The notes beneath the pieces are model-generated. The model did not search any database and was not told where the DNA came from. It saw only the letters and a list, made by a program, of their open reading frames with translations. From contig CASBQH010000017.1 in NCBI GenBank assembly GCA_949127695.1, positions 1 through 13,092 on the forward strand: DNA of 13,092 nt, in the 5' to 3' direction. Position numbers and translations under genes: made by a program. Of this stretch, positions 1-12,968 are shown piece by piece (within the stretch, counting starts at the first letter, position 1; the number at the start of each line of letters is the position of its first letter). Origin of the DNA: Synechococcales cyanobacterium PMM_0073. Its GTDB lineage: Bacteria; Cyanobacteriota; Cyanobacteriia; Elainellales; Elainellaceae.

Positions 1-1259
1 GCATCCACCCAGCCCAGCGGCGCGGCATAGAGCGAGCGGTCAAACTGCTCGTAGCGCAGGATTTGCTCGCAGGCGGTTTGTCGCGGCATTCCGGCTACTG
101 CTGGGGTCGGGTGGAGTGCGGCAACTAGCTGCATCGGGTGGAGCGCCGCAGGCAGTCGCGTCTGAATCGGCGTATGCAGATGCTGAATATTGGCCAGCTG
201 GCGCAGGCTGGGGCGATTGGCATAGCGGGGGCAGAGTCCTAGCTCCAGCAGCTCTTGGGCAATAAACTCGACCACCAGCCGATGCTCGCGCTGCTCTTTT
301 TCGCTCTGGATCAGGCGTTTGGCCAGCTGATCATCTTCTGTGACAGTCCGTCCGCGTGAGGCTGAACCGGCCAGAGCATCAGTGATCAGATGCCGCTGAC
401 GAATGCTGAGCAGGCGTTCGGGGCTAGCGCCAATAAAGCTCTGGCGACCGTTGCCCACTGAGAATACGGCGCAGTCAGGATGCAGCTGGCGCAGGTGATG
501 CAGCGACTGACTCCACTGAAACGGCAGCTCGGAATAGACATCCATGACATGAGCCAAAACTAACTTTTGATAGGCTTGGCTTTGAATCGATTCGAGCGCT
601 GAAATAACGGCGGCTGGAAAGTGATGGCCGTCAATAATTTTCCAGCGATTCAGTTGGCCAATTTGCGATTCTACTAAATAGAAATGCTCGGCAGAAATGC
701 GCTGAATTTTTTGCAGCTGCTGCCAAATCGTCTGGGTAATTTCGCTAATCTTTGCCGTTGAATCAATTAGCCAATTCACGGTAACTCGGCCTGAATTTTG
801 CTGTTTTGTCACCTGCCAGCGCGGCAAAAACAGCGTGGCGGGCGCAAAGGGCGCGGCGCTGGAGGCTTGTTCAAAAAAGCTAAAGCTGCTGAATATGCAG
901 GGTGATGCCCAGGCTTGCTCGGCTCTAGGCGCGTTAGAAAGCAGCTGAGCAAAGCAGTCTTGGGTAAACTGCTGCGCTTCGACAAACCGCTGCGAGCCGC
1001 TCGTTTGCTTTGAAAGCACCGGCTCAAAAGCCGCAACCGCCTCGCCGCTGTCCCGGTTTTCGATGTAAAAATGCGGTTGCCCAGCTGCGAGTCGATGCAG
1101 CACTGTCAGGGGATCAACCGCCGCAGTTTCCAAAGCAATGCTGGCAATTTTGGCTTGACCCGCAGCAATCGATTGCGCTTTACAGAACTCAAGAAATTGA
1201 TAGAGTTTCTGACAATCTTGCGATGAATTGAGCTGGCTAAAAGGCGATTGACAAAGCAT
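1..1259 (-). CDS. menF: Isochorismate synthase MenF, 3' end cut by window edge
   Basis: Converts chorismate to isochorismate, the entry step of menaquinone/phylloquinone synthesis, in the cytoplasm. My own translation from the ATG at 1259-1257 stays open to the window edge (419 codons), so only the C-terminal end is missing. Chorismate-binding-enzyme signatures appear in order: FIGASPE, DALAGSASRG, a SEKEQREHRLVV segment, LHTPI, and LHPTPAVAG. The last two segments hold residues that bind Mg and chorismate in this family. The N-terminal 200 or so residues are the poorly conserved lid region typical of MenF. No nearby start competes; a weak AAGGA lies 15 nt upstream of the ATG. The gene follows the P450 gene on the same strand after a 91-nt gap, so it may be cotranscribed with it or have its own promoter. 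Anthranilate synthase component I or salicylate synthase are related folds. Linkage to menA favours MenF. Confidence 0.95.
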   Translation of the reverse strand, partial: MLCQSPFSQLNSSQDCQKLYQFLEFCKAQSIAAGQAKIASIALETAAVDPLTVLHRLAAGQPHFYIENRDSGEAVAAFEPVLSKQTSGSQRFVEAQQFTQDCFAQLLSNAPRAEQAWASPCIFSSFSFFEQASSAAPFAPATLFLPRWQVTKQQNSGRVTVNWLIDSTAKISEITQTIWQQLQKIQRISAEHFYLVESQIGQLNRWKIIDGHHFPAAVISALESIQSQAYQKLVLAHVMDVYSELPFQWSQSLHHLRQLHPDCAVFSVGNGRQSFIGASPERLLSIRQRHLITDALAGSASRGRTVTEDDQLAKRLIQSEKEQREHRLVVEFIAQELLELGLCPRYANRPSLRQLANIQHLHTPIQTRLPAALHPMQLVAALHPTPAVAGMPRQTACEQILRYEQFDRSLYAAPLGWVD

Positions 1260-1350
1260 TGAACCTGTAACTATTCCTTAACAATTCAGCCGTTAACCTG
1301 CAAATCTCAGCCTTGAGTCTGAATCGAAATATTGCTATCTCTAACATACT

Positions 1351-2730
1351 TTAACCCGCCGGTTTTGCTAAGCAGCTTGCTCCTGAGCGCAGCCCAACCA
1401 CTTGCAGCTGCAAATCTCCCGGTGGCACAAAGGTAATGCCGCGTCGGGCAGGGCGCTTCAGCGGGCGCAGCGGCTGAGCAGGCCGCAGCTCATAGCGCTT
1501 CAGCAGCGTTGCCAAAATCAGCTTCATTTCAAACAGAGCCAGCGCCATGCCAATACAGCTGCGGCTGCCCCCGCCAAACGGCAGATATTCGTAAGGCGAA
1601 AGCTTGGCCTCTAAAAAGCGCTCAGGCCGAAACCGCTCGGCATCTGGGTAAGCCTCAGCCCGTCGATGCGCCAAATAAATACAGGGAACTAGCACCGCTC
1701 CGGGCTCAAACTCATAGCCCGCCAGCCTCAGCGCCTGCTTGACGCAGCGCGGCTGAGCAATTAGTGCAATTGGATAGATCCGCAATGCCTCCTTGCAGAC
1801 AGCGCTCAAATAGGGGAGCTGAGCCAGCGCCGCCGGACTGGAATCAGCCCGGTCTAGCTCTGCCTGAAGCCGCGCCAAAACATCAGGCTGTTGATGCAGC
1901 CAGTAAAACACCCAGGTTAGGCCAGAAGCGGTGGTTTCATGCCCCAGCAGCAGCAGCGTCATCAGCTGATCGCGTAGCTCTACATCGCTCAGCGGCTGTC
2001 CTTCCAAGTCCCGCGCCGCCAGCAGCATTGAGAGAATATCCTGCCCCGGTGGCTGTGCTCTTCGCTCGCGGATCTCGGCATAGAGCAGCGCGTCAATCTG
2101 CTGCCGCAGCCGCAAAAAGCTCCCCCAAGGGCTATGGCTGCCCCAGTCTCGCTGCAACGGCGGCAGGAAAAACTGCACCGAATAAAGCGGCGAATTAACC
2201 CGCTCTAGCAGCCGATGCAGCAGCGCCTTGAGCTGAAGATAGCGCTGTCCGGGCTGGAGGCCAAACACAACGCGCAAAATTAGCTCTAGCGAAATTTCTA
2301 GCATCTGCGCCTGCACCGGAATCACAGCGCCGAGCGGCCAATCGGTCTGCTGGGTAATTTGGCAAATCAGCTCACCGCAGTTTTGTAAGCTCTCGCCGTG
2401 CAGCGCGGGCATCAAGAGCTGGCGCTGCTGCTGGTGGCGCGCCCCGTCCTGCATAATCAGCGACTGATCGCCGGTCAGAGGCCGAAACGGATGCGTGACT
2501 TTGCCCAGCTCCAGCCGATCGGCCAGCGTTGTGAAGATCGCCTGAATATCGTCAGGATGGCTGAAAAACACCACAGGCGGCGAGTTTGCCCCCAGCACCC
2601 TGAGCGTGAACCGATCGCCATAGCGTTTAGCGCAGTCTTCTAAAAAGCCAGTCGGGTTGGCGATAATTTGCAGCGTTTGCGCCAGCGGCAGCAGCGATGA
2701 ACCAGCAGGAAGTTTCGCAGGAAGTTTCAT
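1351..2730 (-). CDS. Cytochrome P450, CYP110-like
   Basis: Haem-thiolate monooxygenase; the nearest family I recognise is cyanobacterial CYP110, some members of which hydroxylate fatty acids or terpenoids. The substrate here is unknown. I chose the ATG at 2730 (459 aa, MKLPAKLPAG...), because CYP110 proteins usually begin with such an MKLPxGP-like stretch; an upstream in-frame TTG at 2745 would add five residues. In 459-aa numbering: the N-terminal NPTGFLEDCAKRYGD segment is typical of the family. The I-helix LLLLGHETTASG lies near 259-270. The ExxR motif of KEALRIYP has E314 and R317. The haem loop FGGGSRSCIG carries the cysteine ligand at 392. There is no membrane anchor, so it is soluble and needs a separate ferredoxin or reductase; none is encoded nearby. 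It lies upstream of menF on the same strand. A TACAAT at 2772-2767 (minus strand) is a possible -10 box without a clear -35. Confidence 0.93.
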   Translation of the reverse strand: MKLPAKLPAGSSLLPLAQTLQIIANPTGFLEDCAKRYGDRFTLRVLGANSPPVVFFSHPDDIQAIFTTLADRLELGKVTHPFRPLTGDQSLIMQDGARHQQQRQLLMPALHGESLQNCGELICQITQQTDWPLGAVIPVQAQMLEISLELILRVVFGLQPGQRYLQLKALLHRLLERVNSPLYSVQFFLPPLQRDWGSHSPWGSFLRLRQQIDALLYAEIRERRAQPPGQDILSMLLAARDLEGQPLSDVELRDQLMTLLLLGHETTASGLTWVFYWLHQQPDVLARLQAELDRADSSPAALAQLPYLSAVCKEALRIYPIALIAQPRCVKQALRLAGYEFEPGAVLVPCIYLAHRRAEAYPDAERFRPERFLEAKLSPYEYLPFGGGSRSCIGMALALFEMKLILATLLKRYELRPAQPLRPLKRPARRGITFVPPGDLQLQVVGLRSGASCLAKPAG

Positions 2731-2863
2731 GAGGCGGCGGTTCAAACATCAGGCCAAAGCCTTTGTATTGTAAGCACAGTCAGCAGAAGAAAAGCGGGAT
2801 GCGGCCAGCGTTGATTCATGATTCGTTACGGGAGCGCCATTCAAGCAGGCGGCGACTGGCCTT

Positions 2864-2869
2864 TATAAT
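2864..2869 (+). promoter_or_regulatory. Putative -10 box of the menA promoter
   Basis: A perfect TATAAT lies in the divergent gap between the P450 gene and menA. Transcription would begin near 2876, leaving a leader of about 80 nt before the chosen menA start. The -35 region (TTCAAG at 2840-2845, 18-nt spacer) matches TTGACA at only three of six bases, so the call rests mainly on the -10 and its position. Confidence 0.5.
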
Positions 2870-2876
2870 GAGGTTT

Positions 2877-2884
2877 GCGATCGC
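2877..2884. repeat. HIP1 octamer GCGATCGC
   Basis: An exact GCGATCGC palindrome, the core of the highly iterated palindrome common in cyanobacterial genomes. It lies just downstream of the menA -10 box, in the leader. It supports a cyanobacterial source; a local role is not shown. Confidence 0.8.
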
Positions 2885-2956
2885 TAGATGCGCCAACTGA
2901 TGCCGCGTTTGCCGATCCGTCGGATTTTTTCACTGACTCCAGCCACCTCGCCACCC

Positions 2957-3898
2957 ATGACCACCAAAGCTGCGAACTACGCCAGCGCTCAGTCCAAGGC
3001 ATCAGACCGCACAGAGCGGCAGCTCTGGCTGGCCGCGCTGATGCCGCCCATGTACAGCGTCGCGATTTTTCCAATTGCCCTCGGCAGCGCCATCGCCTTT
3101 GCCGAAACGCATCAGCTGCGCTGGGGAGTATTCCTGACGTTTTTGCTCTCGGCCATTTTGATCTTGGCCTGGGAAAATCTCAGCAACGATGTGTTTGACT
3201 CAGAAACCGGCATTGATGACAACGAGCCGACTTCGCTGGTGAATTTAACCGGCAACAAATCGCTGATCTTCTGGCTGAGCAATCTTTGTCTGGGACTCGG
3301 AATTGCTGGCATTTTGGCAATTGCCTGGGGGCAGCAAGATTTCACCATTCTGGGCTTGATTCTGGCCTGCTGCGGCTTGGGCTATATTTACCACGGGCCG
3401 CCGTTTCGTCTGGGCTATCAGGGCTTAGGCGAGATTCTCTGCTTTTTTAGCTTTGGGCCGCTGGCCGTTTCTGCGGCCTATTACAGCCAGACTCAGGCTT
3501 GGTCGGGCGCGGCTTTGGCAGCTTCGCTGGTGCTGGGTGTGAGCACGAGTTTAATTTTGTTCTGCTCGCATTTTCATCAGGTGGAAGATGATCTGGCTGC
3601 TGGCAAGCGTTCGCCCGTGGTGCGATTGGGGACGCTGCGCTCAGCTCGGCTGCTGCCCTGGCTCTGCGGCAGCATGTTTGGGCTGGTGGGGCTGCTGGTG
3701 GCGCTTCAAGTATTTCCAGTTTGGCTGCTGCTGATGTTTATCAGCCTGCCTGCGGCGATTAACCTCTGTCGCCATGCGCTCAGCTATCATGCTCAGCCGG
3801 AGCGGGTTCGCAACTGCAAGTTTTTCGCCGTGGCGCTGCATTTCTGGAGCAGCATTTTGCTTTGCCTGGGCTTCGCGATGGCGGGCGTGATTTCATGA
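2957..3898 (+). CDS. menA: 1,4-dihydroxy-2-naphthoate phytyltransferase MenA
   Basis: Membrane prenyltransferase of the UbiA family that attaches the phytyl chain to 1,4-dihydroxy-2-naphthoate, giving demethylphylloquinone; phylloquinone is the A1 electron carrier of photosystem I. From the ATG at 2957 it is 313 residues, close to the roughly 307 of Synechocystis Slr1518, whose sequence it resembles along its whole length as I recall it. The first prenyl-diphosphate/Mg motif is NLSNDVFD (N77, D78, D81), followed by VNLTGN. The second is CSHFHQVEDDLAAGK (D211, D212). KPPMY-like LMPPMYSVA opens the first helix, and GPPFRLGYQGLGE is a conserved loop. About eight or nine hydrophobic helices are visible. 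The frame stays open to 2888, but the extra 23 residues lack family resemblance. Its stop overlaps the next gene's ATG (ATGA), indicating translational coupling. Confidence 0.95.
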   Translation: MTTKAANYASAQSKASDRTERQLWLAALMPPMYSVAIFPIALGSAIAFAETHQLRWGVFLTFLLSAILILAWENLSNDVFDSETGIDDNEPTSLVNLTGNKSLIFWLSNLCLGLGIAGILAIAWGQQDFTILGLILACCGLGYIYHGPPFRLGYQGLGEILCFFSFGPLAVSAAYYSQTQAWSGAALAASLVLGVSTSLILFCSHFHQVEDDLAAGKRSPVVRLGTLRSARLLPWLCGSMFGLVGLLVALQVFPVWLLLMFISLPAAINLCRHALSYHAQPERVRNCKFFAVALHFWSSILLCLGFAMAGVIS

Positions 3899-4419
3899 GC
3901 TGCCCGCTTGCTGAGCTAGGGTTTCTGCCCATTCTGGACGCAGAGGGTCTAATACCAGATACCTTTGAGGGCAAGGTAGGAGTTTATGCCATTTTTGATC
4001 AGGCCAAAGTCTTGCAGTATGTGGGCTATTCGCGGGATGTGGCGCTCAGTCTAACGCAGCACTTAGTGCGCCAACCCCAAAGCTGCTACTGGTTTAAGGT
4101 ACAAACCATCGATCGCCCTAGCCGCACGGCGCTCGAAGCCACGCGCGATGCCTGGATTGCTGAAAACGGCTCAACGCCTGCGGGCAATGCAGCTGAGGCT
4201 GACCTCTGGAACCAGCCGATTGATGCCAGATCCCGCATGAGCGAGGCGGAAAAATCTGCCTACGACTCTAGCGACGAGCCGGGAAAAATCAAAGCCTTGA
4301 AGCAAGTCTCCCGCCGAGTTGAGGCCGAAGTAATGCAGGAGCTGGACAAGCGCGGTGTGAAGCTGCCGATTCGGTTTGATCCCAAAGCCAAAGAGGCCGG
4401 GTTGCTCAACTTAAAGTAG
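3895..4419 (+). CDS. GIY-YIG domain protein coupled to menA
   Basis: A 174-residue soluble protein with a GIY-YIG nuclease-like domain in its first 100 residues. Visible marks are GVY (29-31), YVG (42-44), an arginine at 47, a glutamate at 81 that could be the metal-binding acid, and an asparagine at 98. These match the order expected of an active GIY-YIG fold, but the real substrate is unknown. The C-terminal part is charged and probably helical, without a DNA-binding domain I recognise. The start at 3895 is chosen because ATG overlaps the menA stop as ATGA; an earlier start at 3862 would lie within menA. From memory, cyanobacterial menA genes often have such a neighbour (slr1519 beside slr1518), so the link may be old. 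Its stop overlaps the convergent regulator gene by 9 bases. Confidence 0.85.
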   Translation: MSCPLAELGFLPILDAEGLIPDTFEGKVGVYAIFDQAKVLQYVGYSRDVALSLTQHLVRQPQSCYWFKVQTIDRPSRTALEATRDAWIAENGSTPAGNAAEADLWNQPIDARSRMSEAEKSAYDSSDEPGKIKALKQVSRRVEAEVMQELDKRGVKLPIRFDPKAKEAGLLNLK

Positions 4420-5823
4420 AGGGATGCTGCTGCCGCTTTCTCCAGCAGAGCTGTGACTCACCGTGCCAGCCAGCAGCCGCTCCATGCCCATCTGGATCTC
4501 GGCAACCGACAGATTTCCGTAACCCATCACAAATTGCCCCGGATAGTCATTCGGTCGAGTCGCGTAGTTTGCAACCGGATAGAGCTTGATCCTGGCATTT
4601 GGCTCAAACTGCGCCCCAATGAATTGAGCAATCAGATGTAGCCCGGTGGAGTCACCGGAAATTGTTACCTGCTCACCAAATGCTGCCACCAGCGACTGCC
4701 GCAGCGCATTTCGGCGCTGACGATAGAGCCGCCGCATTCGGATTACATGCCGCTCAAGTTGCCCTGACTGCAAAAATTGAGCCAGGGTTAATTGCTCTAG
4801 CACCGAGTTATGCAGATCGCTCAGCCACTTTAGATCGCGACATGGCTGGATGTAGGCTGGCGGCAGCACCAAATAGCCCAGCCTCAATGCGGGCGAAAGG
4901 ATTTTGCTAAACGTGCCAACATAAATTACCTGTTCAGGTGCTAGCCCCTGCATGGCCGTTATGGGCGTACCTTCAAACCGAAATTCGCTGTCATAGTCAT
5001 CTTCGATAATGATGCAGCCAGTTGCTTTGGCAAATTCTAGCAGCTGAATGCGGCGCTGAATTGTCAGAATGCTGCCTGTCGGAAACTGGTGTGAAGGCGT
5101 CACCAAAACAAATTTCGGCACGGGTATGGCTGCCAAATACTCAGGCTGGATGCCCTGATGATCAACTGGAATAAATTGCAGCTGCACGCCTTGAGCTGCA
5201 AAAATCTGTCGAACTTCCAGTGGCCCTGGATCTTCGAGCGCAACTCGATCGCTGGGTTGCGCTAGCAATTTCACCACCAGCCCAAATGCCTGTGCCGCTC
5301 CAGCCGTAATCACAATTTGCTCAGGTTGCAGTCTGAGTCCGCGTATTCGTCGCAGATACTCGGTCAGCGCTATTCTCAGCTCAACCTGGCCTTCAGGAGC
5401 AGCATAGCCAAAGCAGTTGGCCTCAGCCTCAGCGCAGACTCGTCGGGTAAACTGGCTCCAGAGCCGACGCGGAAACTGATCGAGCGCTGGCACACCTGAT
5501 CGAAAATCAATGGCTGGCGGTCGGGCTAAATTGGGTTGCTTGACGATCTCAATCGGCTGGATACTCGGCTCTAGCCAAGCGGCTCCTGCTGCCACATAAT
5601 TGCCTGATCCAGCTCTGCTCACGAGAAATCCTTCTGCCTTGAGCTGCTCATAGGCTTCAAGCACCACATTGCGGGAAACTTGCAGCTGCTCAGCCAAGGC
5701 ACGAGTAGCGGGCAGCTGAGTCTGGGCAGGCAGCTTGCCCTGCAAAATCTGCTGGCGTAGTTCCAAATAGATTTGGCGAATTAAGGGAATTTTGGCATTG
5801 CGGTCAATTGTTAGCCAGAGCAT
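4411..5823 (-). CDS. MocR/PdxR-family transcriptional regulator (GntR HTH + aminotransferase-like)
   Basis: 470 residues, the normal size for the MocR subfamily. The N-terminal GntR winged helix spans about 1-78, including PLIRQIYLELRQQIL, LPATRALAEQLQVSRN and GFLVSRAGSGNYV. A fold-type I aminotransferase-like domain follows from about 105 to the end. Its PLP features are intact: the Schiff-base lysine K307 in TFSKILSPALRLGYL, D275-Y277 in IIIEDDYDSEF, and the MocR-typical HQFPTG at 245-250. It should therefore bind pyridoxal phosphate and sense PLP or a PLP-reactive amine. Family members such as PdxR and GabR activate or repress adjacent divergent genes and often repress themselves. Here the divergent genes are DUF3291 and a LysE/RhtB exporter, and the gap carries fitting repeat boxes. 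The regulator's exact name is uncertain: no pdx or gab genes are in view. Confidence 0.93.
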   Translation of the reverse strand: MLWLTIDRNAKIPLIRQIYLELRQQILQGKLPAQTQLPATRALAEQLQVSRNVVLEAYEQLKAEGFLVSRAGSGNYVAAGAAWLEPSIQPIEIVKQPNLARPPAIDFRSGVPALDQFPRRLWSQFTRRVCAEAEANCFGYAAPEGQVELRIALTEYLRRIRGLRLQPEQIVITAGAAQAFGLVVKLLAQPSDRVALEDPGPLEVRQIFAAQGVQLQFIPVDHQGIQPEYLAAIPVPKFVLVTPSHQFPTGSILTIQRRIQLLEFAKATGCIIIEDDYDSEFRFEGTPITAMQGLAPEQVIYVGTFSKILSPALRLGYLVLPPAYIQPCRDLKWLSDLHNSVLEQLTLAQFLQSGQLERHVIRMRRLYRQRRNALRQSLVAAFGEQVTISGDSTGLHLIAQFIGAQFEPNARIKLYPVANYATRPNDYPGQFVMGYGNLSVAEIQMGMERLLAGTVSHSSAGESGSSIPLL

Positions 5824-5831
5824 CAGGCAGG

Positions 5832-5880
5832 ATTGGTTCTCTACAATTGGTATTCTACAAATAGCTCAAAAGTGGCTCTA
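5832..5880. promoter_or_regulatory. Putative MocR operator: 14-bp tandem repeat plus third box
   Basis: Directly upstream of the regulator start are two abutting 14-mers, ATTGGTTCTCTACA (5832-5845) and ATTGGTATTCTACA (5846-5859), identical at 12 of 14 positions. A third related box, AAAGTGGCTCTA, lies at 5869-5880. All three share TGG followed by CTAC in the same direction. MocR proteins bind direct repeats. From memory, the Corynebacterium PdxR box is close to AAAGTGGWCTA with an optional extra T, which the third box resembles. A TAGAAT on the minus strand (5857-5852) inside the second repeat could be the regulator's own -10, which would give autorepression. Confidence 0.55.
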
Positions 5881-5935
5881 CCTCAAACCAGCTGCGGCAG
5901 ATATGCTACAGACTGTTCTCTCGCTTGAGCCACCC

Positions 5936-6400
5936 ATGCCGAACTATCATCTCGCTCAGGTTAATATCGCGACTATGCTAGCTCCGCTGAGCGACCCAAC
6001 AATGGCTGATTTTGTAGCACAGCTTCAGCAGATTAATCAAATTGCCGATATCAGTCCCGGCTTCGTTTGGCGATTGCAGGAAGATGACGGTAACGCCACT
6101 AGCCTGCGCGCCTACGAAGACGAGCGAATTTTGTTTAACCTCTCGGTCTGGGAATCTGTGGCGGCGCTGTCTGGCTATGTTTATCGCAGTCAGCATGGCG
6201 CGGCAATGCGCGATCGACGCCGTTGGTTTGCCAAGTCAGATCTGCCGACCATGGCGCTCTGGTGGATTCCGATTGGCAGCCTTCCGACTGTGCCTGAAGC
6301 TAAAGCTCGCCTAGAATACCTGCGGCAGCATGGCTCGACGGCTTACGCTTTCTCGTTTCGGCAGCCGGTTGCCCCTGAAGTTGTTTCTGCAAAATTTTGA
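5936..6400 (+). CDS. DUF3291 family protein
   Basis: A 154-residue soluble protein. It matches the DUF3291 family as I know it, which is thought to adopt the small alpha/beta-barrel fold seen in heme-degrading and antibiotic-biosynthesis monooxygenases. Typical segments are YHLAQVNIATMLAPLSDPTM at the start, PGFVWRLQ, the NLSVWESVAALSGYVY stretch, and ALWWIPIGSLPTVPEAKARL. No reaction is established for the family. I chose the ATG at 5936 because the protein resemblance begins at MPNYHLAQVN; in-frame starts at 5792 and 5903 would run into the operator or the regulator gene. The ribosome site is weak. It is divergent from the MocR gene and joined to the exporter gene by TGATG, so both are probably one MocR-controlled unit. 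Confidence 0.85.
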   Translation: MPNYHLAQVNIATMLAPLSDPTMADFVAQLQQINQIADISPGFVWRLQEDDGNATSLRAYEDERILFNLSVWESVAALSGYVYRSQHGAAMRDRRRWFAKSDLPTMALWWIPIGSLPTVPEAKARLEYLRQHGSTAYAFSFRQPVAPEVVSAKF

Positions 6401-7038
6401 TGATGATTGACTTAGCGCAATGGTTTAGCGTTGTTTTGGTTTGCTCGTTGGTGATTATTAGCCCTGGCCCAAATCTGGTGATCACGATGCGAAACAGCTT
6501 GGCTCATACGCAGCGAGCAGGGATTTATACGGCGCTCGGATTGGCGGTTGGCGATTTAATTCACATTGGCGGTTGGCTGGTGGGAATTGGCGTGATTATT
6601 ACGCGCTCAGTGTTAGTATTTAACATCCTGAAATGGATGGGTGCGGCTTATTTAATCTACATTGGGATCAAATCACTTCAGGCTAAAAAACATCGGCCTG
6701 CTGATATAGAAGACACAGCCGTTAACATTCAGATCAATTCAAAGCAAGCATTCAGAATGGGTTTACTTACCTGCTTGCTCAATCCTAAAGTGACGCTGTT
6801 TTTCTTTGCTTTGTTTACGCAGCTGATCCAGCCCGGAACGCCATTTTGGGTGCAGATGCTCTATGGTATAACGGTCGCTAGCATTGAGTTTCTCTGGTTT
6901 ACGACTGTAGCCGTCACCATTTCTCAGCCTTTGATCAAGCGGCGGTTTGTCAGCGTTTCGCACTGGCTAGAGCGGGTCATGGGAGCCGTGCTGCTGGGGC
7001 TGGGGCTGGGGCTGAGGCTGGCGATTGTGCGGGACTGA
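6400..7038 (+). CDS. LysE/RhtB family amino-acid (or amine) exporter
   Basis: A 212-residue inner-membrane exporter, normal size for the RhtB/LysE superfamily. The family signature SPGPN is at 21-25, in the first membrane helix, followed by RAGIYTALGLAVGD and GAAYLIYIGIKSL. About six hydrophobic helices are visible, with a polar loop near residues 92-115. The second half has the conserved GLLTCLLNPKVTLFFFALFTQ. The substrate cannot be read from sequence. RhtB-type pumps export amino acids or their toxic analogues, which fits control by a PLP-based sensor. The ATG at 6400 overlaps the DUF3291 stop by one base (TGATG); the next ATG (6403) and an upstream TTG (6397) are alternatives. The C-terminus (LGLGLGLRLA) is encoded by a CTGGGG hexamer run. 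Confidence 0.92.
   Translation: MMIDLAQWFSVVLVCSLVIISPGPNLVITMRNSLAHTQRAGIYTALGLAVGDLIHIGGWLVGIGVIITRSVLVFNILKWMGAAYLIYIGIKSLQAKKHRPADIEDTAVNIQINSKQAFRMGLLTCLLNPKVTLFFFALFTQLIQPGTPFWVQMLYGITVASIEFLWFTTVAVTISQPLIKRRFVSVSHWLERVMGAVLLGLGLGLRLAIVRD
6994..7017 (+). repeat. CTGGGG hexamer tandem repeat in the exporter gene
   Basis: Three CTGGGG units and a fourth changed one (CTGAGG) near the end of the LysE/RhtB gene. The unit is in frame and encodes Leu-Gly pairs, so slippage would lengthen or shorten the last helix by two residues without shifting frame. The three GGGG runs are also G-quadruplex-like. Confidence 0.7.
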
Positions 7039-7050
7039 AGGAGCAGCTAG

Positions 7051-7082
7051 GCCGATTGCCGCAGGCTCTAGCAGCAATCGGC
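7051..7082 (+). terminator. Hairpin after the exporter gene, possible terminator
   Basis: A perfect 9-bp inverted repeat, GCCGATTGC (7051-7059) and GCAATCGGC (7074-7082), with a 14-nt loop, begins 13 bases after the LysE/RhtB stop. There is no T-run after it, so it is not a classic rho-independent terminator. It may still stop transcription or protect the mRNA end. Confidence 0.45.
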
Positions 7083-7521
7083 TCAGGAAGAATTTCCATC
7101 TGATCAGTCAGCCGCTGTCATTGTTGCTTTGGGCGGAGGTAAATTATCTGCGCCTAGAGAAAATCTGCAAATGCTGGAGAGCGCTTGGGATGCGAGGGTG
7201 GGGATTACCATTACAACTCCTGAAGTAGATGGTGGATGCTGGGGCTATTGCCTCTATTTACTAAACGTTCGACTGCGACCGCATTATGATGATTTTGGCG
7301 AGAGCTTACGAAAGCGACGTTGGCAAATAGAGACTGCCCTCTACTTAAAGAACAGGCGGCAGTGCTGGCGTTATGAAATCCCTAAATACGGCAAAGCCCC
7401 CAGAGATGATCTGGAGGCCGAATGCAATGACGCGAAATGCTACCGAGCAGCTGCGGCTACCGACAGCTTGTACCGGGCATTAGTCCAAACGGATTGTTTG
7501 GATTGCCAGTTGGCGTTGTGA
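7072..7521 (+). other. Unassigned stretch with a doubtful reading frame
   Basis: The 418 bases between the exporter (7038) and the CHAT gene end (7457) hold no gene I recognise. One plus-strand frame is open from 7072 to a stop at 7519-7521. It has a TTG at 7129 and an ATG at 7171 as starts, giving at most 130 residues from the TTG. Its beginning reads AAVIVALGGG, which faintly recalls the start of a YdcF-like domain. Its middle is rich in W, R and Y (KRRWQIETALYLKNRRQCW). It lacks a good ribosome site and its last 65 bases run under the CHAT gene in the opposite direction. It could be a small real gene, a decayed remnant, or chance. No other frame is better. Confidence 0.3.
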
Positions 7522-10171
7522 GGACGCGGGTAGTAAGCTCTTCGCGATCGCCATTCGCATCAAAGCTAATGGTTTTGTTTGGAAATACGTTGCTTTTGAC
7601 CCCTTGCAGCATTGAGAGGCTCTGCTGAATTTCGGCTGAGGTGACATTGGGCTTCAAAGTAGCTTGCAATGCCTGGATCGCTTCGTAAGATAACGCCGTG
7701 CTGCGATTGACGCCGCCAAACCAATAGGTCTCTTCTGCCTCTTTGACAAAACTCCCGGCTCCGGTAGGGACGCATTGCCGATACCAATCTGTCGCGATCA
7801 GCAGTTTGTTCTTGAGGTTTTCCGCGCCACCCCCTTTGTTAACCACAGCGTCATCGTAGAGCGGATTTGAACCCAGCATCAGCTTCTCGCCACGATTGGC
7901 TTTGAGCACCTCAACAGCCCGATTGAACGCATCTGGACTGCCGGTGCGGCCATCGGGTAAGACTGCTAAGGCATCAACATTGCTAACCTGCTTGAGCGTT
8001 GCCTCAGGATCAATTGCAGTAGATAGATCGAACGCCTGGAGGACAATGCCCCCCTTGGCGAGTAAAGCTGACTGCAACTGGTTGTACAGATTCAGACTAA
8101 ACTGATCCTCTTTATTATAAAAAACTGCCACTTTGGGACGGGGCTTCAAGTTAATTAAATAATTGACCAGCGTTTCAGCTTCAATCTTGGTAGATGAGGT
8201 GGTGCGAAAAAACAGGTTTGAGTTGCCGCAGTCTTGGCGCAGATCCGCAGCGGTGCTGAGCGGCGAAACGACCGGAATTTGGGCAGGCGCATAGCCCGTC
8301 TTGAGCGCATCGCAGGTGCTGTTGCTGGTGTAATGCCCAACTACGGCCAAAATCTGGCGACCCTCAAATTTAGTCTTTGCCAGTGACTCGGCAATTGCCT
8401 GAGCCTGATTAGGATCGTTGCGATCGTTGGCCACGATAATTTCTAGATTGACCGGATCGCTGCTCGCTGGATTGACCGCCCGATCTTGCGCCTGGGCAAT
8501 CCCAAACAGCATTTGCTGGCCGATGTTAATATTCAGCGGCACGGCGGCGGCAATGGGATAGATCGGTTCGCCGTTTTGGTGACGCAGCCGCACCTCGGCG
8601 TTGTTTTTGTAGATCAACACAGTCGGATCTTGGAGCGCTTTTCGGGCCTCAGGATCTTTAGACTGTCGCCACTGCTTTTCAGCCTCATCGCGAATCTGAG
8701 CAAATTTATCTCTTGCAGTCGGATAATTGCCTGCCTTAAAGGCGTCCATGCCCTGCTGCTTCAGCTCTGCATAGTTGCCGCTGAGGGCAATTATGCTGCT
8801 CTCAATTGGCTCTCCACCTGCGCTGATCAGCTGAGCTGCGGGCTGGAGAGCTTGGATCGTGACAGGTGAAGCAGGGTTAAATAAGCTGAATAAGCGGTTT
8901 CTGATGCCAGGTTCACTGACAAGAGCCGCTGTTAAAGCTAGTGCCCCAATCCCTGCGGCAACTTTTTTGAGATGCTTGGAGCCTCGTGGCGGTGGCTCTA
9001 GCGGCAGCAGTGGCTCTGGCTCTGGCGGCAGCGGTGGCTCTAGCTCTGGCGAAAGATGATCTAGCAGATCTTGCCAGGTGAGCGGCGGCATGTTTTGCTT
9101 AGCGCAGACAATTGGCAGCCAAGTGACTTCAGAAAACTGCGTATTGAAATGCTCTAACCCTTGGCGGGCGATTCGCACCGAGCGCATCAAGGGCTGCTGC
9201 TCTTTAATAAATTGACGAAAGAAGCGATCAATAAATTCGACGGCCACCATATCTGGCACTGGCTCACGCATCACAATGCAGCGCGGCAGGTTGAGCTGCG
9301 CTAGCTGCTGCGCCAAGCCCAAGCCGTCGCAAGAATTAAAAATTGCCAGCTGCAAGCCTCTCTCGACGACTCTTCTCAAAGCCAATCTAAAGTTAAGAAT
9401 GCTCAGCTCGTCGGTTGCATTCAGCGATAGCCAGCCCACCTGTCCGTCATCACTGCTGCGGCTATGACCGACGTAGACAAAAATGTGATAGCCCTGTGCG
9501 TCATCGAGAGCAGTCTGTAGCTCTTTGGTTGTGGGCTGTAGTAACTCAATAATTTCTACCTTGGTCGGATACTCTCGCTCCCAGGTTTTGATCGCCTCCA
9601 AATCCTGCTCTGTTCTAATCCCAGTGCTGTCGCCCACGACAACCAAAATTCTGATTTTTGCAGCCTGCGGGTAAACCAGCTGTGTTCCTAGATGTCCTGG
9701 CGAAAAAGCGCGCAGAGCAGCATCGACTTCCGGGTAATTCTGGACTAACAGATTCCAATCCTGCCAAGGCAATCGCTTCAGCAGATCGTTTTGGCCTAAA
9801 TCAATCAGCAGGCGCGGCTCATTGATGCGAGACGACAGCCTAATCAGCTCCTCCCGAATTTCTCGCCAATGTTCATCTGGGAAGGCGAGCCAAAGATTAA
9901 GCTGCTTTCTCAGAGATTCAGATAGGCCAATGACATCCTGAATTGGGTGATCAATTACAACGCCGCTAATCCGATAGTGCGAGCGGACGCCCTCTTGAGT
10001 TGAATAGGCGGCTTTCCAGTCTGCTAAGGCGTTTTGCAGCGACTGCGGCATTTTGGGCAGCGATGCTTCAATTTCGTCCATGTGAAAATCTTTGGCATCC
10101 AAGGTGGCTCGAAATCCAGCTTCAGGATGATCGGTATCGCGGGGTCTAATAATCAGTCTAATAATTGCCAT
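7457..10171 (-). CDS. Membrane CHAT protease fused to a periplasmic ligand-binding domain
   Basis: A 904-residue fusion. Residues 1-170 are the N-terminal region usual in cyanobacterial CHAT proteins (LPWQDWN at 134-140). The CHAT caspase-like domain spans about 171-360, with the likely catalytic pair H236 (FVYVGHSRS) and C281 (LAIFNSCDGLGLA), then IVMREPVPD and WLPIVCAKQN. A Pro/Glu linker lies at 375-395, and one hydrophobic helix at about 404-418 (VAAGIGALALTAALV). A TPR-like helical pair follows (470-528). The C-terminal 370 residues form a type I periplasmic-binding-protein fold of the branched-chain amino acid/ANF-receptor kind (ILAVVGHYTSNST, IPVVSPLSTAADL, VAVFYNKEDQF). With lysines after the linker and before the helix, the protease should be inside and the ligand domain outside. 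The start is set by AAGGA seven bases upstream. It is the last gene of an operon, 59 nt after DUF1822. Substrate and ligand are unknown. Confidence 0.93.
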   Translation of the reverse strand: MAIIRLIIRPRDTDHPEAGFRATLDAKDFHMDEIEASLPKMPQSLQNALADWKAAYSTQEGVRSHYRISGVVIDHPIQDVIGLSESLRKQLNLWLAFPDEHWREIREELIRLSSRINEPRLLIDLGQNDLLKRLPWQDWNLLVQNYPEVDAALRAFSPGHLGTQLVYPQAAKIRILVVVGDSTGIRTEQDLEAIKTWEREYPTKVEIIELLQPTTKELQTALDDAQGYHIFVYVGHSRSSDDGQVGWLSLNATDELSILNFRLALRRVVERGLQLAIFNSCDGLGLAQQLAQLNLPRCIVMREPVPDMVAVEFIDRFFRQFIKEQQPLMRSVRIARQGLEHFNTQFSEVTWLPIVCAKQNMPPLTWQDLLDHLSPELEPPLPPEPEPLLPLEPPPRGSKHLKKVAAGIGALALTAALVSEPGIRNRLFSLFNPASPVTIQALQPAAQLISAGGEPIESSIIALSGNYAELKQQGMDAFKAGNYPTARDKFAQIRDEAEKQWRQSKDPEARKALQDPTVLIYKNNAEVRLRHQNGEPIYPIAAAVPLNINIGQQMLFGIAQAQDRAVNPASSDPVNLEIIVANDRNDPNQAQAIAESLAKTKFEGRQILAVVGHYTSNSTCDALKTGYAPAQIPVVSPLSTAADLRQDCGNSNLFFRTTSSTKIEAETLVNYLINLKPRPKVAVFYNKEDQFSLNLYNQLQSALLAKGGIVLQAFDLSTAIDPEATLKQVSNVDALAVLPDGRTGSPDAFNRAVEVLKANRGEKLMLGSNPLYDDAVVNKGGGAENLKNKLLIATDWYRQCVPTGAGSFVKEAEETYWFGGVNRSTALSYEAIQALQATLKPNVTSAEIQQSLSMLQGVKSNVFPNKTISFDANGDREELTTRVLTTPTGNPNNPFGLMPGTSCR
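7544..7551. repeat. HIP1 octamer GCGATCGC
   Basis: The second exact HIP1 octamer in the window. It is inside the 3' part of the CHAT gene, where it encodes part of the NGDREEL segment on the minus strand. Confidence 0.8.
8982..9049 (-). repeat. 24-bp tandem repeat coding for the Pro/Glu linker
   Basis: Two abutting 24-bp units (9026-9049 and 9002-9025) differ at two positions, and a partial third follows (8982-9001). They encode the PELEPPLP and PEPEPLLP repeats between the CHAT domain and the membrane helix. The unit length is a multiple of three, so copy changes would only change linker length. Confidence 0.8.
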
Positions 10172-10230
10172 CGGCCTATCCTTGAGCTTATCTATATGTA
10201 TCTATAAAGCAGCAACCAGATTGCTTGAAT

Positions 10231-11187
10231 TCAAACGCAAAATGCTTCGGTAACGCTATAGTCTCCCAGCGAGATCCGCATCGTAAACTGCTCGCCCGCT
10301 TGGCAGTTTAGCAGTAGCTCTGGCAGAGTCTCAGCATTTGATTGCGACTCCAACACCACTGAATTGGCCTGATCCAAAACGGCAATAGTTAAACCCTGAG
10401 GCAGCGTTCTAGCGGCATTATCTGGATAAAGCCGCAGGCTCACATTCAGCCGACTTTCGGCAGTCATAATGGCAATCACCTGCACCACCAGCACCACGGT
10501 TGTGCTAGATTGCGCGAGCTGAATGGTCATGGCGCGGCTGACAGAATTAACCTGGGCATCAACCTGAGCGGGTACTGAGAAGCCGTCACCTAAATTAATT
10601 GGGCTGCGCGCCGCATTGCGATGCCGCATTGGTACGAGTTGATCAATCGATTTCCACTGTTCGCCAAACTGCCCTTCTAACCACTGGCGCAAATTGTGAA
10701 TTGCGGCTTCAGGATAGAGTAAATCCAGCAGTGAGTCTAGCGGCAGCAGCTGGTTGAGCGGAATTTCTGGCTCTAGTGGTTCATCGGCAATTGCCCGCAC
10801 AAATCCCAACAGCTCAACTGTATTTAAATCCTCTTGAAACTGCACGGCAACACAGCCAATTCGATCTTCAATGACTTCTAGCGGCAGAGTGAATGCTTCG
10901 GTTCCAGGCAAGATTGGCCGACATTCTAAAACGCCGATTTCTGGCACTGCTAGATCTGCTAAATCAAACATGGCTCTGAGTCCCGGCTGCCAGCAGTCAG
11001 ACTGAGCTAAATCAGTTGGAATATTCAGCCAGTTGAGGTAGGTATGCACGGCATAGACGGCCAGCGTATTCAGATAGACCCGTTTACCTTTAGCGGGCGT
11101 TGCCTGTTCAGCCGCAAATCGAGCCGCATAGTCATGCGCTTCGTGATTCAGCGGAACGGGCATTCTTAGCACTGTTGCAATACTCAT
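10231..11187 (-). CDS. DUF1822 family protein
   Basis: A 318-residue protein of the cyanobacterial DUF1822 family. The recognisable part is the N-terminal half: FAAEQATPAKGKRVYLNTLA, VHTYLNWLNIPTDLAQSDCW, FDLADL, GVLECRPI and RIGCVAVQFQEDL. The C-terminal part (about 200-318) is rich in beta strands and ends GEQFTMRISLGDYSVTEAF. The two parts are joined by a basic, probably flexible stretch near 185-205. No membrane helix or signal peptide is visible, so it should be cytoplasmic. The family has no established function that I know of. It lies between the sigma-like gene (34 nt upstream) and the CHAT gene (59 nt downstream) on one strand, and from memory this trio recurs in cyanobacteria. A role as partner, inhibitor or protease substrate in the same pathway is an inference. 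Confidence 0.9.
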   Translation of the reverse strand: MSIATVLRMPVPLNHEAHDYAARFAAEQATPAKGKRVYLNTLAVYAVHTYLNWLNIPTDLAQSDCWQPGLRAMFDLADLAVPEIGVLECRPILPGTEAFTLPLEVIEDRIGCVAVQFQEDLNTVELLGFVRAIADEPLEPEIPLNQLLPLDSLLDLLYPEAAIHNLRQWLEGQFGEQWKSIDQLVPMRHRNAARSPINLGDGFSVPAQVDAQVNSVSRAMTIQLAQSSTTVVLVVQVIAIMTAESRLNVSLRLYPDNAARTLPQGLTIAVLDQANSVVLESQSNAETLPELLLNCQAGEQFTMRISLGDYSVTEAFCV

Positions 11188-11221
11188 GAGCGTTTAATTT
11201 CTTAAAGTTGATCAGCAAAGT

Positions 11222-12142
11222 TTACGAGCGAAATCGTTTGAGAATGGGCAGGCAATGCTTGTCCCAATGATTCCAAATATCGGATTCTTTTGAGATCTGG
11301 ATATTTTGGGCGATTGTAGAAATCTCTACCGCCGGATCGGTTAGCAAAAGCAGTTCTGCGAGATTCCAGCAGTTGCATTCTGGACGCTCTTGCAGATGGC
11401 ATTGACTGAGCCGATCTTTTGCCTCAGGCTCAATGACGGCTTGCCTCAGCAGCTCGTCAAACCGCAAAGCAATCAGCCGCAGGCGGGGCTGACATTTCGT
11501 TCTCCAGTGTGTATAAATTGTCTGTTCAGGGATGCCAAGTTCGACGGCAATGGCACGGATCGTTTGGGGTGGTTCGTTCAGCTGCACCCGTATTGTCAAC
11601 ACCTGAGCGTTGCATTCAGGATGTTTGCGGGGATGACAGCTTGTTAAAATACCCTGCGGATCTTGCTCAATATAGTCTCGGATCTGCTGACCAATTCGCT
11701 GTTGCCGATTTTGCTGCTGTTCTCGGATTAGATCATCAAGCGCAGTTAATCCCTTTGGATCTGCTATGGACTCGGATTTCTCATTTCCATTCTCAGTAGC
11801 TTCGTTGAGCCTTACAGGCTTAAAGCGCTTGGGTAGATATTCCATGTCAGGGCGATACAGATCATTAATTCGCCATGCCAAATATCCATTCACCCACCAG
11901 ATAAATTCTTCAGAATTAGTTGGCGGTGGCGATTCAGGCTTAAAACCTTCAATCTTTTTAATTACCCATATCACGGTCTGACTCAAAGCATCATAGTAGT
12001 CTGGATGTTTTCTGCGAAGCAGCTTTGGCGATTGCTGAATATGCATCAACAGCTCCGATATACAGAGTTTTCGCCGCAATTGCGAATTTAAAAGCTGGCC
12101 GATCTGAGCCAGCAGATACTGAAGTCGCTCGTCATCACACAT
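11222..12142 (-). CDS. Sigma-70-like DNA-binding protein with duplicated Cys-His/HTH module
   Basis: A 306-residue protein resembling the divergent sigma-70-like proteins that cyanobacteria encode beside DUF1822 genes. Residues about 40-97 (HPDYYDALSQTVIWVIKK ... WVNGYLAWRINDLY) look like a region-2 helical core. Residues 188-225 are a region-4-like HTH (TIRAIAVELGIPEQTIYTHW). A second, more worn HTH follows at 268-301 (ISTIAQNIQISKESDIWNHW). Each HTH is preceded by CHxxxxPECN (C169-N178 and C248-N257) and followed by HWxxxC (to C217 and C297), so the module is duplicated at a spacing of about 79 residues. It probably recruits RNA polymerase or binds DNA; true sigma activity is not proved. 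It is the first gene of the operon. No clear ribosome site precedes the ATG at 12142. Confidence 0.8.
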   Translation of the reverse strand: MCDDERLQYLLAQIGQLLNSQLRRKLCISELLMHIQQSPKLLRRKHPDYYDALSQTVIWVIKKIEGFKPESPPPTNSEEFIWWVNGYLAWRINDLYRPDMEYLPKRFKPVRLNEATENGNEKSESIADPKGLTALDDLIREQQQNRQQRIGQQIRDYIEQDPQGILTSCHPRKHPECNAQVLTIRVQLNEPPQTIRAIAVELGIPEQTIYTHWRTKCQPRLRLIALRFDELLRQAVIEPEAKDRLSQCHLQERPECNCWNLAELLLLTDPAVEISTIAQNIQISKESDIWNHWDKHCLPILKRFRS

Positions 12143-12296
12143 GGGAGGGAAACACCTGCATCGAGATATTCAGCCGCTGCCGCACAGCCGCTTTTCTACA
12201 GAGTAGCTTAGCCGCTTTGTCCCCAAACCGAAAGCGCCATCCATCCCACAGAGAGCTTGATTTAATCATCACTAGAGAACCCCTGACGTGACTCAT
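12135..12296 (-). CDS. Possible 53-residue leader ORF overlapping the sigma-like gene start
   Basis: A short open frame runs from an ATG at 12296-12294 to a TGA at 12137-12135, overlapping the sigma-like start by eight bases. A second in-frame ATG is at 12269. The product would be basic and contains SLWDGWRFRFGDKAAKLL; I recognise no family. The overlap would allow translational coupling, and the gap otherwise lacks a good ribosome site. It may well be chance. Confidence 0.22.
   Translation of the reverse strand: MSHVRGSLVMIKSSSLWDGWRFRFGDKAAKLLCRKAAVRQRLNISMQVFPSHV
12172..12218. repeat. AGCCGCT direct repeats upstream of the sigma-like gene
   Basis: AGCCGCT occurs three times in 45 bases: 12172-12178, 12186-12192 and 12210-12216. 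The last two extend to an identical AGCCGCTTT. They lie 30 to 76 bases upstream of the sigma-like start, where an operator for the operon would be expected. The minus-strand reading is AAAGCGGCT. A role is inferred from position only. Confidence 0.4.
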
Positions 12297-12364
12297 CTAG
12301 CCTCTGTTAGCCGTCGCGCTGTTTTACATATGCAAGATTTCGTAAGATTGATAGCGCCAAGTTT

Positions 12365-12968
12365 TCAGGCTCCTTCGATGACTCGCCGAAACTCAGCAAC
12401 TGCCTGCCCTTCGTCAATTTCAGCCATTAGCACAGCGCGATTGAGCAGCTCAATATCCAGATCGCCCAGGCCAGGAATCTCGCTGCGCGCAGTTCGCATA
12501 GCCCTGCTCCCGCAGCCGATAGAGCCGAAACGCCCCATCCTGCCAGAACCAAACCTCATTCACGCCCAGCGCCAGATAGCGCGGCAGCTTACTCTCACCG
12601 CCGCTGCTGATCACCACCTCAATGGATAAATCTGGAATCGGCTGATCTGCGTGTAGACTTGACTCACCAATATAGTAAGACTCATCAGCCTGCACCGACA
12701 CCAGGCCGGGTTTTTCTTGCGTCATGGAGCGCGCAGGCTTAAAGCGGATGCCTTGGGTGAGCAAAAACGTCATGACTAGGTAGCCAATGAAGCTGGCAAC
12801 CATTTCGTGATCGCGTCCCGGCATCAGAATCTCAACTGTTCCGCTGTAGTAAGAGAGCCGCACCCCTGGAAAGCCAGCGAAGCCCTGCTGGATCAGCTTA
12901 AACTGCTCCCAGCTGTGGCCGCTATGCACCAATCGCTGGCCAGTGGGTTGCTCCAGTAGCTCAGCCAT
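12365..12968 (-). pseudogene. Uma2-family PD-(D/E)XK nuclease-like gene, frameshifted near the end
   Basis: Uma2-family proteins (formerly DUF820) are abundant in cyanobacteria and carry a restriction-endonuclease-like fold of unknown role. The ATG at 12968 opens a frame with the family marks: SGTVEILMPGRDHE, then D113 in PIPDLSIEVV, E117, and K127 in SKLPRYLALGVNEVWFW. After GY157, at about 12497, the frame breaks. As read, it continues with 15 foreign residues to a stop at 12450-12452. The adjacent frame continues the expected family tail (RTARSEIPGLGDLDIELL...) for 43 residues to a TGA at 12365. One extra G, or loss of two bases from a GAG codon, explains this. All catalytic residues are upstream of the break, so the product may still fold. 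A sequencing error is possible. No promoter was found. Confidence 0.85.

Follow-up and report, generated by a model that had tools for sequence, protein, structure and literature searches.

The window analysed here is the entire contig CASBQH010000017.1 of Synechococcales cyanobacterium PMM_0073, 13,092 nucleotides (nt) long. Its minus strand carries three tandem open reading frames (ORFs) that code for a sigma-like protein, a protein with the domain of unknown function DUF1822 and a protein with a CHAT protease domain, separated by a gap of 34 nt and then of 59 nt, as had been stated in a preliminary description made from the sequence alone. It had been proposed there that an outside ligand activates the CHAT protease, which cuts DUF1822 and so frees or changes the sigma-like protein, and a search of cyanobacterial genomes for the trio had been named as a check. 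We find that DUF1822 mostly lies directly beside sigma-like genes across the phylum, that in a second lineage a DUF1822 domain opens a membrane protein encoded next to a sigma gene of the extracytoplasmic function (ECF) type, and we propose that DUF1822 is most likely an anti-sigma factor.

The three predicted proteins of the window

The sigma label of the first gene product held by predicted fold and by family profile but not by the Pfam sigma models, of which none was listed for this protein at E values up to 1, a result that concerns detection and not a defining trait. Both a sigma2 and a sigma4 fold, which together mark an ECF sigma factor of the sigma70 type, are present in the one predicted protein, and the best matches of the model in the PDB are sigma factors, with modest scores. 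When the profile of the sigma family was compared with the PDB, it matched RpoE (2q1z, E=0.0017) and SigK (E=0.0024). R91 is kept in 32 of the 43 aligned sigma-like sequences, and the window has S54 where 24 of the 43 have Q. The gene is modelled as encoding a divergent ECF-type sigma factor. Residues 235-305 form a second sigma4-like copy that had been missed in the preliminary description (E=9.9e-10 with the family profile, in a set of fewer than 50 proteins); a doubled sigma4-like domain is unusual. The same tandem duplication was seen in loci L111, L104, L106 and L107, and in L100 and L108 it is the N-terminal part that is duplicated instead. One protein set gives the window sigma-like protein as 274 aa, starting at residue 33 (window 12045-12142), but we favour the upstream start, since the alignment to the family profile already begins at residue 3 and four loci show conservation of the start region.

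The second gene product matches the DUF1822 model PF08852 over residues 11-316 with 192.1 bits against a cut-off of 25. Its structural model consists of an N-terminal alpha/beta domain, a loose linker at about residues 195-212 and an eight-strand immunoglobulin (Ig)-like C-terminal beta-sandwich, and it has no membrane helix. The flexible basic stretch that had been placed at residues 185-205 is therefore to be redrawn, since residues 187-194 are predicted as a short helix and the low-confidence stretch lies at about 195-212; lysine and arginine make up 11.5% of the linker segment as against 8.3% of the whole protein in CHAT-linked members. A profile of 65 DUF1822 proteins gave no match by sequence to solved chains, and in the fold search a known anti-sigma fold was not among the matches listed, although that search probed the N-terminal domain poorly and listed no match for it. 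A tetratricopeptide repeat (TPR) fold, as implied where Kaur et al. (2021) call DUF1822 a TPR protein, was rejected, the model being alpha/beta followed by eight strands and the Pfam scan of the protein finding no TPR family. A large TPR protein is encoded directly upstream of DUF1822 in L054, L065, L055 and L056; in the first two of these the sigma gene lies on its far side, and the published label might stem from such loci.

In the third gene product the CHAT domain (PF12770) was found at residues 186-339 with 38.4 bits against a cut-off of 24 (E=1.3e-9) and Peripla_BP_6 at 575-841 (E=1.6e-14), so that the earlier picture of a CHAT protease joined by one helix to a periplasmic ligand-binding domain stands. 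The helix itself is the weakest of the 12 CHAT proteins examined, all of which have one; its hydropathy is a borderline 1.52, as compared to 1.99-2.53 in the 11 relatives. C281, named earlier as the catalytic residue, was rightly chosen, the predicted dyad being H236 and C281. Both are kept in all 58 entries that span the two positions in an alignment of 62, the remaining four being three truncated ORFs and one DUF1822 fragment. The coordinates of all these features are given in Table 1.

Table 1. Features of the window (pLDDT, predicted local distance difference test; pTM, predicted template modelling score)
Feature	Positions	Strand	Basis
Gene modelled as a divergent ECF-type sigma factor, 306 aa	11222..12142	-	ORF; model pLDDT 88; best PDB matches sigma factors; profile vs PDB RpoE; duplication
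Sigma2-like domain, residues 1-100	11843..12142	-	Predicted fold; W83 identical in 43/43 aligned sequences
Loose linker of the sigma-like protein, residues about 100-128		-	Model
First sigma4-like domain, residues 130-233	11444..11755	-	
Second sigma4-like domain, residues 235-305	11228..11440	-	Second family-profile match
DUF1822 gene, 318 aa, proposed anti-sigma-like partner	10231..11187	-	PF08852 E=2e-56; model pLDDT 90, pTM 0.74
DUF1822 N-terminal alpha/beta domain, about 1-180, proposed sigma-binding half	10648..11187	-	Model, profile comparison, correlated change
DUF1822 low-confidence linker, 195-212, immediately past R194 of the hydrophobic-Arg-small motif	10552..10605	-	Model
DUF1822 C-terminal Ig-like beta-sandwich, 213-318	10234..10551	-	Model, fold search
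Membrane CHAT receptor gene (putative), 904 aa	7457..10171	-	ORF, Pfam
Conserved N-terminal domain of the CHAT protein, 1-170	9662..10171	-	Alignment; position matches EACC2 of Kaur et al.
CHAT protease domain, about 171-345, predicted dyad H236 + C281	9137..9661	-	Pfam, alignment
Single transmembrane helix, about 401-419, past a proline-rich stretch	8915..8971	-	Hydropathy, borderline in the window protein
Periplasmic binding protein-like sensor, 575-841	7649..8449	-	Pfam
Intergenic region upstream of the sigma-like gene, possible promoter	12143..12449	-	Short blocks common with L153, weak

Conservation of the trio and a second lineage

The Pfam DUF1822 model was run against 146 genomes drawn evenly from the phylum and matched in 102 of them, in 101 above the cut-off. 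From these, 112 loci of the class Cyanobacteriia were taken, covering 113 of at least 129 DUF1822 hits (the 15 or so not fetched were weaker or partial) and containing 115 DUF1822 ORFs, five of which are shorter than 285 aa (two pieces in L048, and those of L128, L115 and L141). The gene immediately upstream shares the strand of DUF1822 in 112 of the 115 cases, and for 101 of these it is no more than 150 nt away. The conservation that was to be checked is thus found: in the profile search the immediate upstream neighbour is sigma-like for 102 of the 115 DUF1822 ORFs, and 66 are followed by a CHAT gene at no more than 900 nt. Clustering without profiles led to the same picture: two clusters took up 102 of the 115 upstream neighbours, a single CHAT cluster held 61 downstream neighbours, and among the second genes upstream the largest cluster had at most five members. 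The larger upstream cluster, class B, has 55 members that are mostly 380-550 aa long, and the smaller one, class A, whose profile the window protein matches, has 47. Sigma70_r4_2 matched 29 and Sigma70_r4 matched 22 of the 112 same-strand upstream genes (three opposite-strand genes and, downstream, the second half of a broken DUF1822 were left out of this Pfam scan, and sequences were cut at 600 aa upstream and 480 aa downstream), and of seven class B proteins scanned singly four passed the Sigma70_r4 cut-off. Among the second genes downstream there is one cluster of 23 (L046, L062 and 21 other loci). A three-member cluster occupies the CHAT slot in L082, L085 and L086, and three genes downstream of DUF1822 match a trypsin-like peptidase; the copy of the L082 locus in L027, checked singly, has such an alternative protease in the CHAT slot.

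The same linkage was seen closer to the window. The nearest named loci, those of Pegethrix bostrychoides (L153, DUF1822 61% identical) and Cyanobacteria bacterium J069 (L154, 53%), have the identical three genes in the identical order. In 80 named loci, selected on DUF1822 alone as the best 80 of 393 relatives of the window protein, the sigma-like gene is present in 78, the CHAT gene in 71 (76 loci had room downstream) and both in 69. The genome of the window has a second trio of sigma-like, DUF1822 and CHAT genes, of class B (G000:C358, locus L151). The C-terminal domains of 60 CHAT proteins, namely 57 ORFs of the draw of at least 450 aa together with those of the window, L153 and L154, were CHASE2 in 38, Peripla_BP_6 in 13 and nSTAND1 in four; thus 51 of the 60 carry CHASE2 or Peripla_BP_6, which agrees with the sensor role suggested earlier.

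Looked at from the side of the partners, 47 of the 59 class A sigma hits of at least 115 bits in the even draw lie within 1.5 kb of a DUF1822 gene, for which the rough chance is 0.3% each. Scoring the same draw against the first 350 or so residues of the CHAT protein gave 102 hits of at least 247 bits, of which 68 are within 1 kb of DUF1822, a further 12 no more than 15 kb away and the other 22 elsewhere. DUF1822 is present in all 44 Cyanobacteriia genomes with such a hit and in 48 of the 64 overall, for which the hypergeometric value is 1e-11 with kinship ignored. Four of the 48 DUF1822 genomes have no CHAT hit of that strength, one of them, G045, having a partial hit of 226 bits. Therefore, in this draw, CHAT of this kind presupposes DUF1822 and not the reverse. 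In a third branch of the phylum, G016 (family f23) has two weak DUF1822 matches with a best E of 6.5e-6.

The second lineage is family f24, which belongs to the same phylum but to a class other than Cyanobacteriia; its genomes measure about 2 Mb. Among the protein relatives of the f24 sigma factor are ones named Candidatus Scatousia, which the taxonomy listing gives as incertae sedis and which we take to be gut Gastranaerophilales. Here a DUF1822 N-domain opens a long protein, whose open frame spans 813-1389 aa in 57 of the 61 genomes and is shorter in four. Scanned alone, six of six of these N-domains were above the PF08852 cut-off (41.0-48.3 bits as against 25), and comparison of their profile with that of DUF1822 gave a probability of 98 across 145 columns; in L145 the whole-protein Pfam scan did not report DUF1822, whereas the genome search gave 45.3 bits and the N-domain alone 44.8 bits. 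After the N-domain come an acidic linker and a single membrane helix, and the far-side end shows a TonB_2/TonB_C match, which in the two proteins scanned whole was above the cut-off (L145) or just below it (L148). A strong membrane helix is present in every one of the 55 full-length proteins, together with an acidic linker (median D+E 29%, K+R 3%) and 167-232 residues past the helix. The next gene codes for a protein of about 190 aa, and four of four scanned were above the Sigma70_r4 cut-off. The 61 genomes that strongly match the N-domain profile are the identical 61 that strongly match the sigma profile. In 57 of them the pair is on one contig, 1.75-3.5 kb apart, and in four it is split across contigs; both genes share a strand in all 57, with a gap of at most 106 nt in 55 and a shortened first ORF in the other two. 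Of the 50 genomes of the same draw with a hit to this CHAT family, none is in f24. The likeness between the f24 sigma and the class A sigma covers 35 columns, which falls short of establishing common descent. In five f24 loci (L144, L145, L146, L147 and L149) the gene after sigma starts with a cysteine-rich zinc-ribbon-like sequence; the L147 protein, when scanned, showed a double zinc ribbon, with AAA_16 below the cut-off, and may be a third partner.

With a cytoplasmic N-domain, a membrane helix and a far-side end, encoded beside an ECF sigma factor, the f24 form follows the layout that membrane anti-sigma factors usually have. This architecture favours the N-domain as the part that binds sigma, independently of CHAT. 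The idea that DUF1822 may restrain the sigma factor gains independent backing from this fusion.

Linker, correlated change and the proposed mechanism

A motif of a hydrophobic residue, arginine and a small residue occurs in the linker of 68 of 94 non-redundant CHAT-linked DUF1822 proteins (27.9 +/- 4.0 in shuffled sequences) and of 32 of 47 without an adjacent CHAT gene (11.2 +/- 2.8). Near-duplicates had been removed beforehand (188 to 143). When three control stretches were examined in each group, only residues 20-56 of the CHAT-linked proteins exceeded the shuffles (30 as against 20.5 +/- 3.4). As the pattern had been picked after viewing 16 sequences, it was also counted in a held-out set from which those and anything at least 60% like them were dropped, and it was found in 52 of 78 CHAT-linked and 27 of 41 other proteins, the same being obtained with L085 excluded too; the shuffles used in the test ignore shared descent. 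A linker specific to CHAT-linked proteins was ruled out, since the motif occurs in both groups and the segment from W178 to R218 has a median length of 31 with CHAT and 26 without. The conserved arginine, R194 in the window, could be a candidate cut site, or else a contact. In the accessible text of one report, Craspase orthologues cleave Csx30 at differing sites (PMC11106740), and because of this the variation in the rest of the linker tells little.

Correlated change was explored by partial correlations of pairwise distances after near-duplicates had been dropped (class B 20 to 17, class A of the phylum draw 29 to 27, class A of the named loci 65 to 44, pooled class A 93 to 68, f24 55 to 52). 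In the 17 class B trios the correlation of sigma with the DUF1822 N-half was 0.63 and that of the C-half with the protease N-domain 0.69, with cross terms of -0.24 to 0.22. The corresponding values were 0.67 and 0.36 in the 44 named class A loci, where sigma and the protease N-domain gave 0.31, and 0.13 and 0.18 in the 27 class A loci of the phylum draw, where that pair gave 0.32. In the 68 pooled class A loci the N-half correlated with sigma4 at 0.42 and with sigma2 at 0.15, and the C-half with the protease N-domain at 0.30, with sigma2 at 0.26 and with sigma4 at -0.29. In this exploratory comparison, two of the three Cyanobacteriia datasets thus appear to link sigma to the N-half and the protease gene to the C-half. 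In f24, where the order is N-domain, TonB_C end, sigma, the correlation of sigma was 0.74 with the N-domain as against 0.23 with the adjacent end, and 0.68 as against 0.36 when the lengths were matched. As sigma tracks the distant N-domain above the adjacent end, linkage is disfavoured as the cause for the f24 pair.

The mechanism that we favour is as follows. The first gene product would be an ECF-type sigma factor and DUF1822 a partner dedicated to it that most likely acts as an anti-sigma factor, with the N-terminal alpha/beta domain holding the sigma factor and the C-terminal beta-sandwich facing the receptor. The CHAT protein would be a membrane receptor whose periplasmic binding domain may sense a small outside solute; binding of this ligand would switch on the cytoplasmic caspase-like protease, which would act on DUF1822, probably cutting it between its halves near R194, and so release or change the sigma factor and with it a putative regulon. 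To the full line, from receptor protease through cleavage of an anti-sigma-like DUF1822 to an ECF sigma factor, we give a probability of about 0.45. That sigma and DUF1822 are functionally paired is very probable, and that DUF1822 inhibits the sigma factor is rather likely. More tentatively, and with odds that we put below even, DUF1822 might be an unrecognised phylum-wide anti-sigma family that predates the split between photosynthetic and non-photosynthetic members; in one branch it would itself be a membrane sensor, and in the other it would have become soluble, gained a beta-sandwich docking half and handed sensing to a transmembrane caspase-like receptor that cuts it, in parallel to Csx29-Csx30-sigma but without CRISPR.

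Several results weigh against the favoured mechanism. The linker is not particular to CHAT-linked DUF1822 proteins, the arginine motif being about equally frequent without an adjacent CHAT gene, and linkage alone could account for the Cyanobacteriia correlations because these largely track gene order. DUF1822 genomes without a strong CHAT hit (four of 48, G045 with its partial one) and f24 (none of the 50 CHAT-hit genomes) mean, moreover, that the sigma-DUF1822 pair can function alone. A reading in which sigma and DUF1822 are a sigma/anti-sigma pair and sigma is a parallel output, while CHAT activates itself or cuts some other protein such as sigma or a cell-death substrate, would suit these facts, as it would suit the loose inter-domain linker in the model of the sigma protein, and in the accessible text it matches the proposal of Kaur et al. 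(PMC8195603). We consider it rather unlikely; the presence of DUF1822 in every genome with a strong CHAT hit and the tracking of the protease N-domain by the DUF1822 C-half in two of three sets speak against it.

No computed result fixes the sign of the DUF1822 effect, which counts in the same direction, and close pairing would suit inhibitors and obligate cofactors alike. DUF1822 would then be a positive cofactor, or a scaffold that brings sigma to the membrane receptor, and its loss would silence the regulon; this is improbable in view of the f24 form, whose plan is that of membrane anti-sigma factors. It is quite improbable that the sigma-like protein has ceased to function with RNA polymerase and now serves as a DNA-binding protein or adaptor, with the trio being a conflict or cell-death module. 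The missing Pfam sigma matches, S54 in place of Q and the unusual doubled sigma4-like domain are in line with such a loss, and Kaur et al. (PMC8195603), in the text accessible, put related genes in immunity and cell-death networks; against it are the invariant W83 and frequent R91, the sigma-type predicted folds in both domains and the Sigma70_r4 matches of class B and f24 partners.

To our knowledge cyanobacteria have many caspase-like proteins, the substrates of which are mostly unknown. If the favoured mechanism is true, a large set of these proteins would be membrane receptors for which both the substrate and the output, a sigma factor, are defined, and what the caspase homologues cut, and why, would become directly testable. 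A domain of unknown function spread through the phylum would gain a role, sigma factors missed by counts based on Pfam domains would be added, and there would be an independent example of CHAT-controlled sigma release outside CRISPR.

Surroundings of the trio and comparison with known systems

Upstream of the sigma-like gene, 307 nt away and on the same strand, lies a gene for a Uma2-type putative endonuclease (12450-12968). A promoter footprint in the region between them was set aside as there were only short common blocks among four sequences, and an Rfam scan of the window gave no match above gathering scores. By Pfam, positions 1-7521 code for a chorismate-binding enzyme, a cytochrome P450, a UbiA prenyltransferase, a GntR-aminotransferase regulator, a DUF3291 protein and a LysE protein, and the ORFs at 3862-4419 and 7129-7521 have no Pfam match.

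The outside signal, the protease and the release of an ECF sigma factor are features that the proposed mechanism would have in common with RseA-sigmaE and RsiW-SigW. In these two systems the membrane protein is itself the anti-sigma factor. RseA is first cut by DegS, whereas here the membrane span sits on the protease and the DUF1822 model has no membrane helix. A cyanobacterial ECF sigma factor with a downstream partner gene is known in SigG, which binds its co-transcribed partner SapG in a yeast two-hybrid assay; a CHAT protease is not mentioned in the accessible part of that account (PMC2758279). Cyanobacterial caspase homologues appear alongside CHASE2 in several older papers, as far as their accessible text goes. 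In our literature search, which did not reach supplements and most subscription journals, no paper was found that joins 'chat protease' with 'chase2' or 'gastranaerophilales' with 'sigma factor'.

The trio itself is already in print, since Kaur et al. (2021, PMC8195603) list neighbourhoods of an EACC2-caspase gene, an ECF sigma gene and DUF1822, and, in the portion accessible, suggest that the peptidase activates itself and that sigma is an output; what is new here is the predicted fold and the proposed job of DUF1822. Like their systems, the window has a caspase-type protease past a constant N-terminal domain, a variable C-terminal sensor, and an ECF-type sigma gene and DUF1822 as neighbours. 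The N-terminal domain of the CHAT protein agrees with EACC2, a name taken from that paper, in place and conservation only. Unlike the TPR protein described there, DUF1822 is modelled here as an alpha/beta domain with an Ig-like sandwich, and neither an anti-sigma reading of it nor the f24 membrane form is found in the accessible section on these systems (PMC8195603).

In its proposed working the trio resembles type III-E CRISPR, in which, according to the accessible text of PMC10028731, one locus holds Csx29, a TPR-CHAT protein, Csx30, which inhibits an ECF-like sigma factor, and that factor, CASP-sigma. A CHAT protease, a partner protein and a sigma factor in one locus are common to both. The trigger in the Csx29 system is the target of a guide RNA (PMC10028731), whereas in the window trio it would be a ligand of the periplasmic sensor, and Cas families (Cas7-11/gRAMP) were not found among the 12 window ORFs scanned. 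By analogy, the window trio would resemble Csx29-Csx30-CASP-sigma in its working but is not a member of that system.
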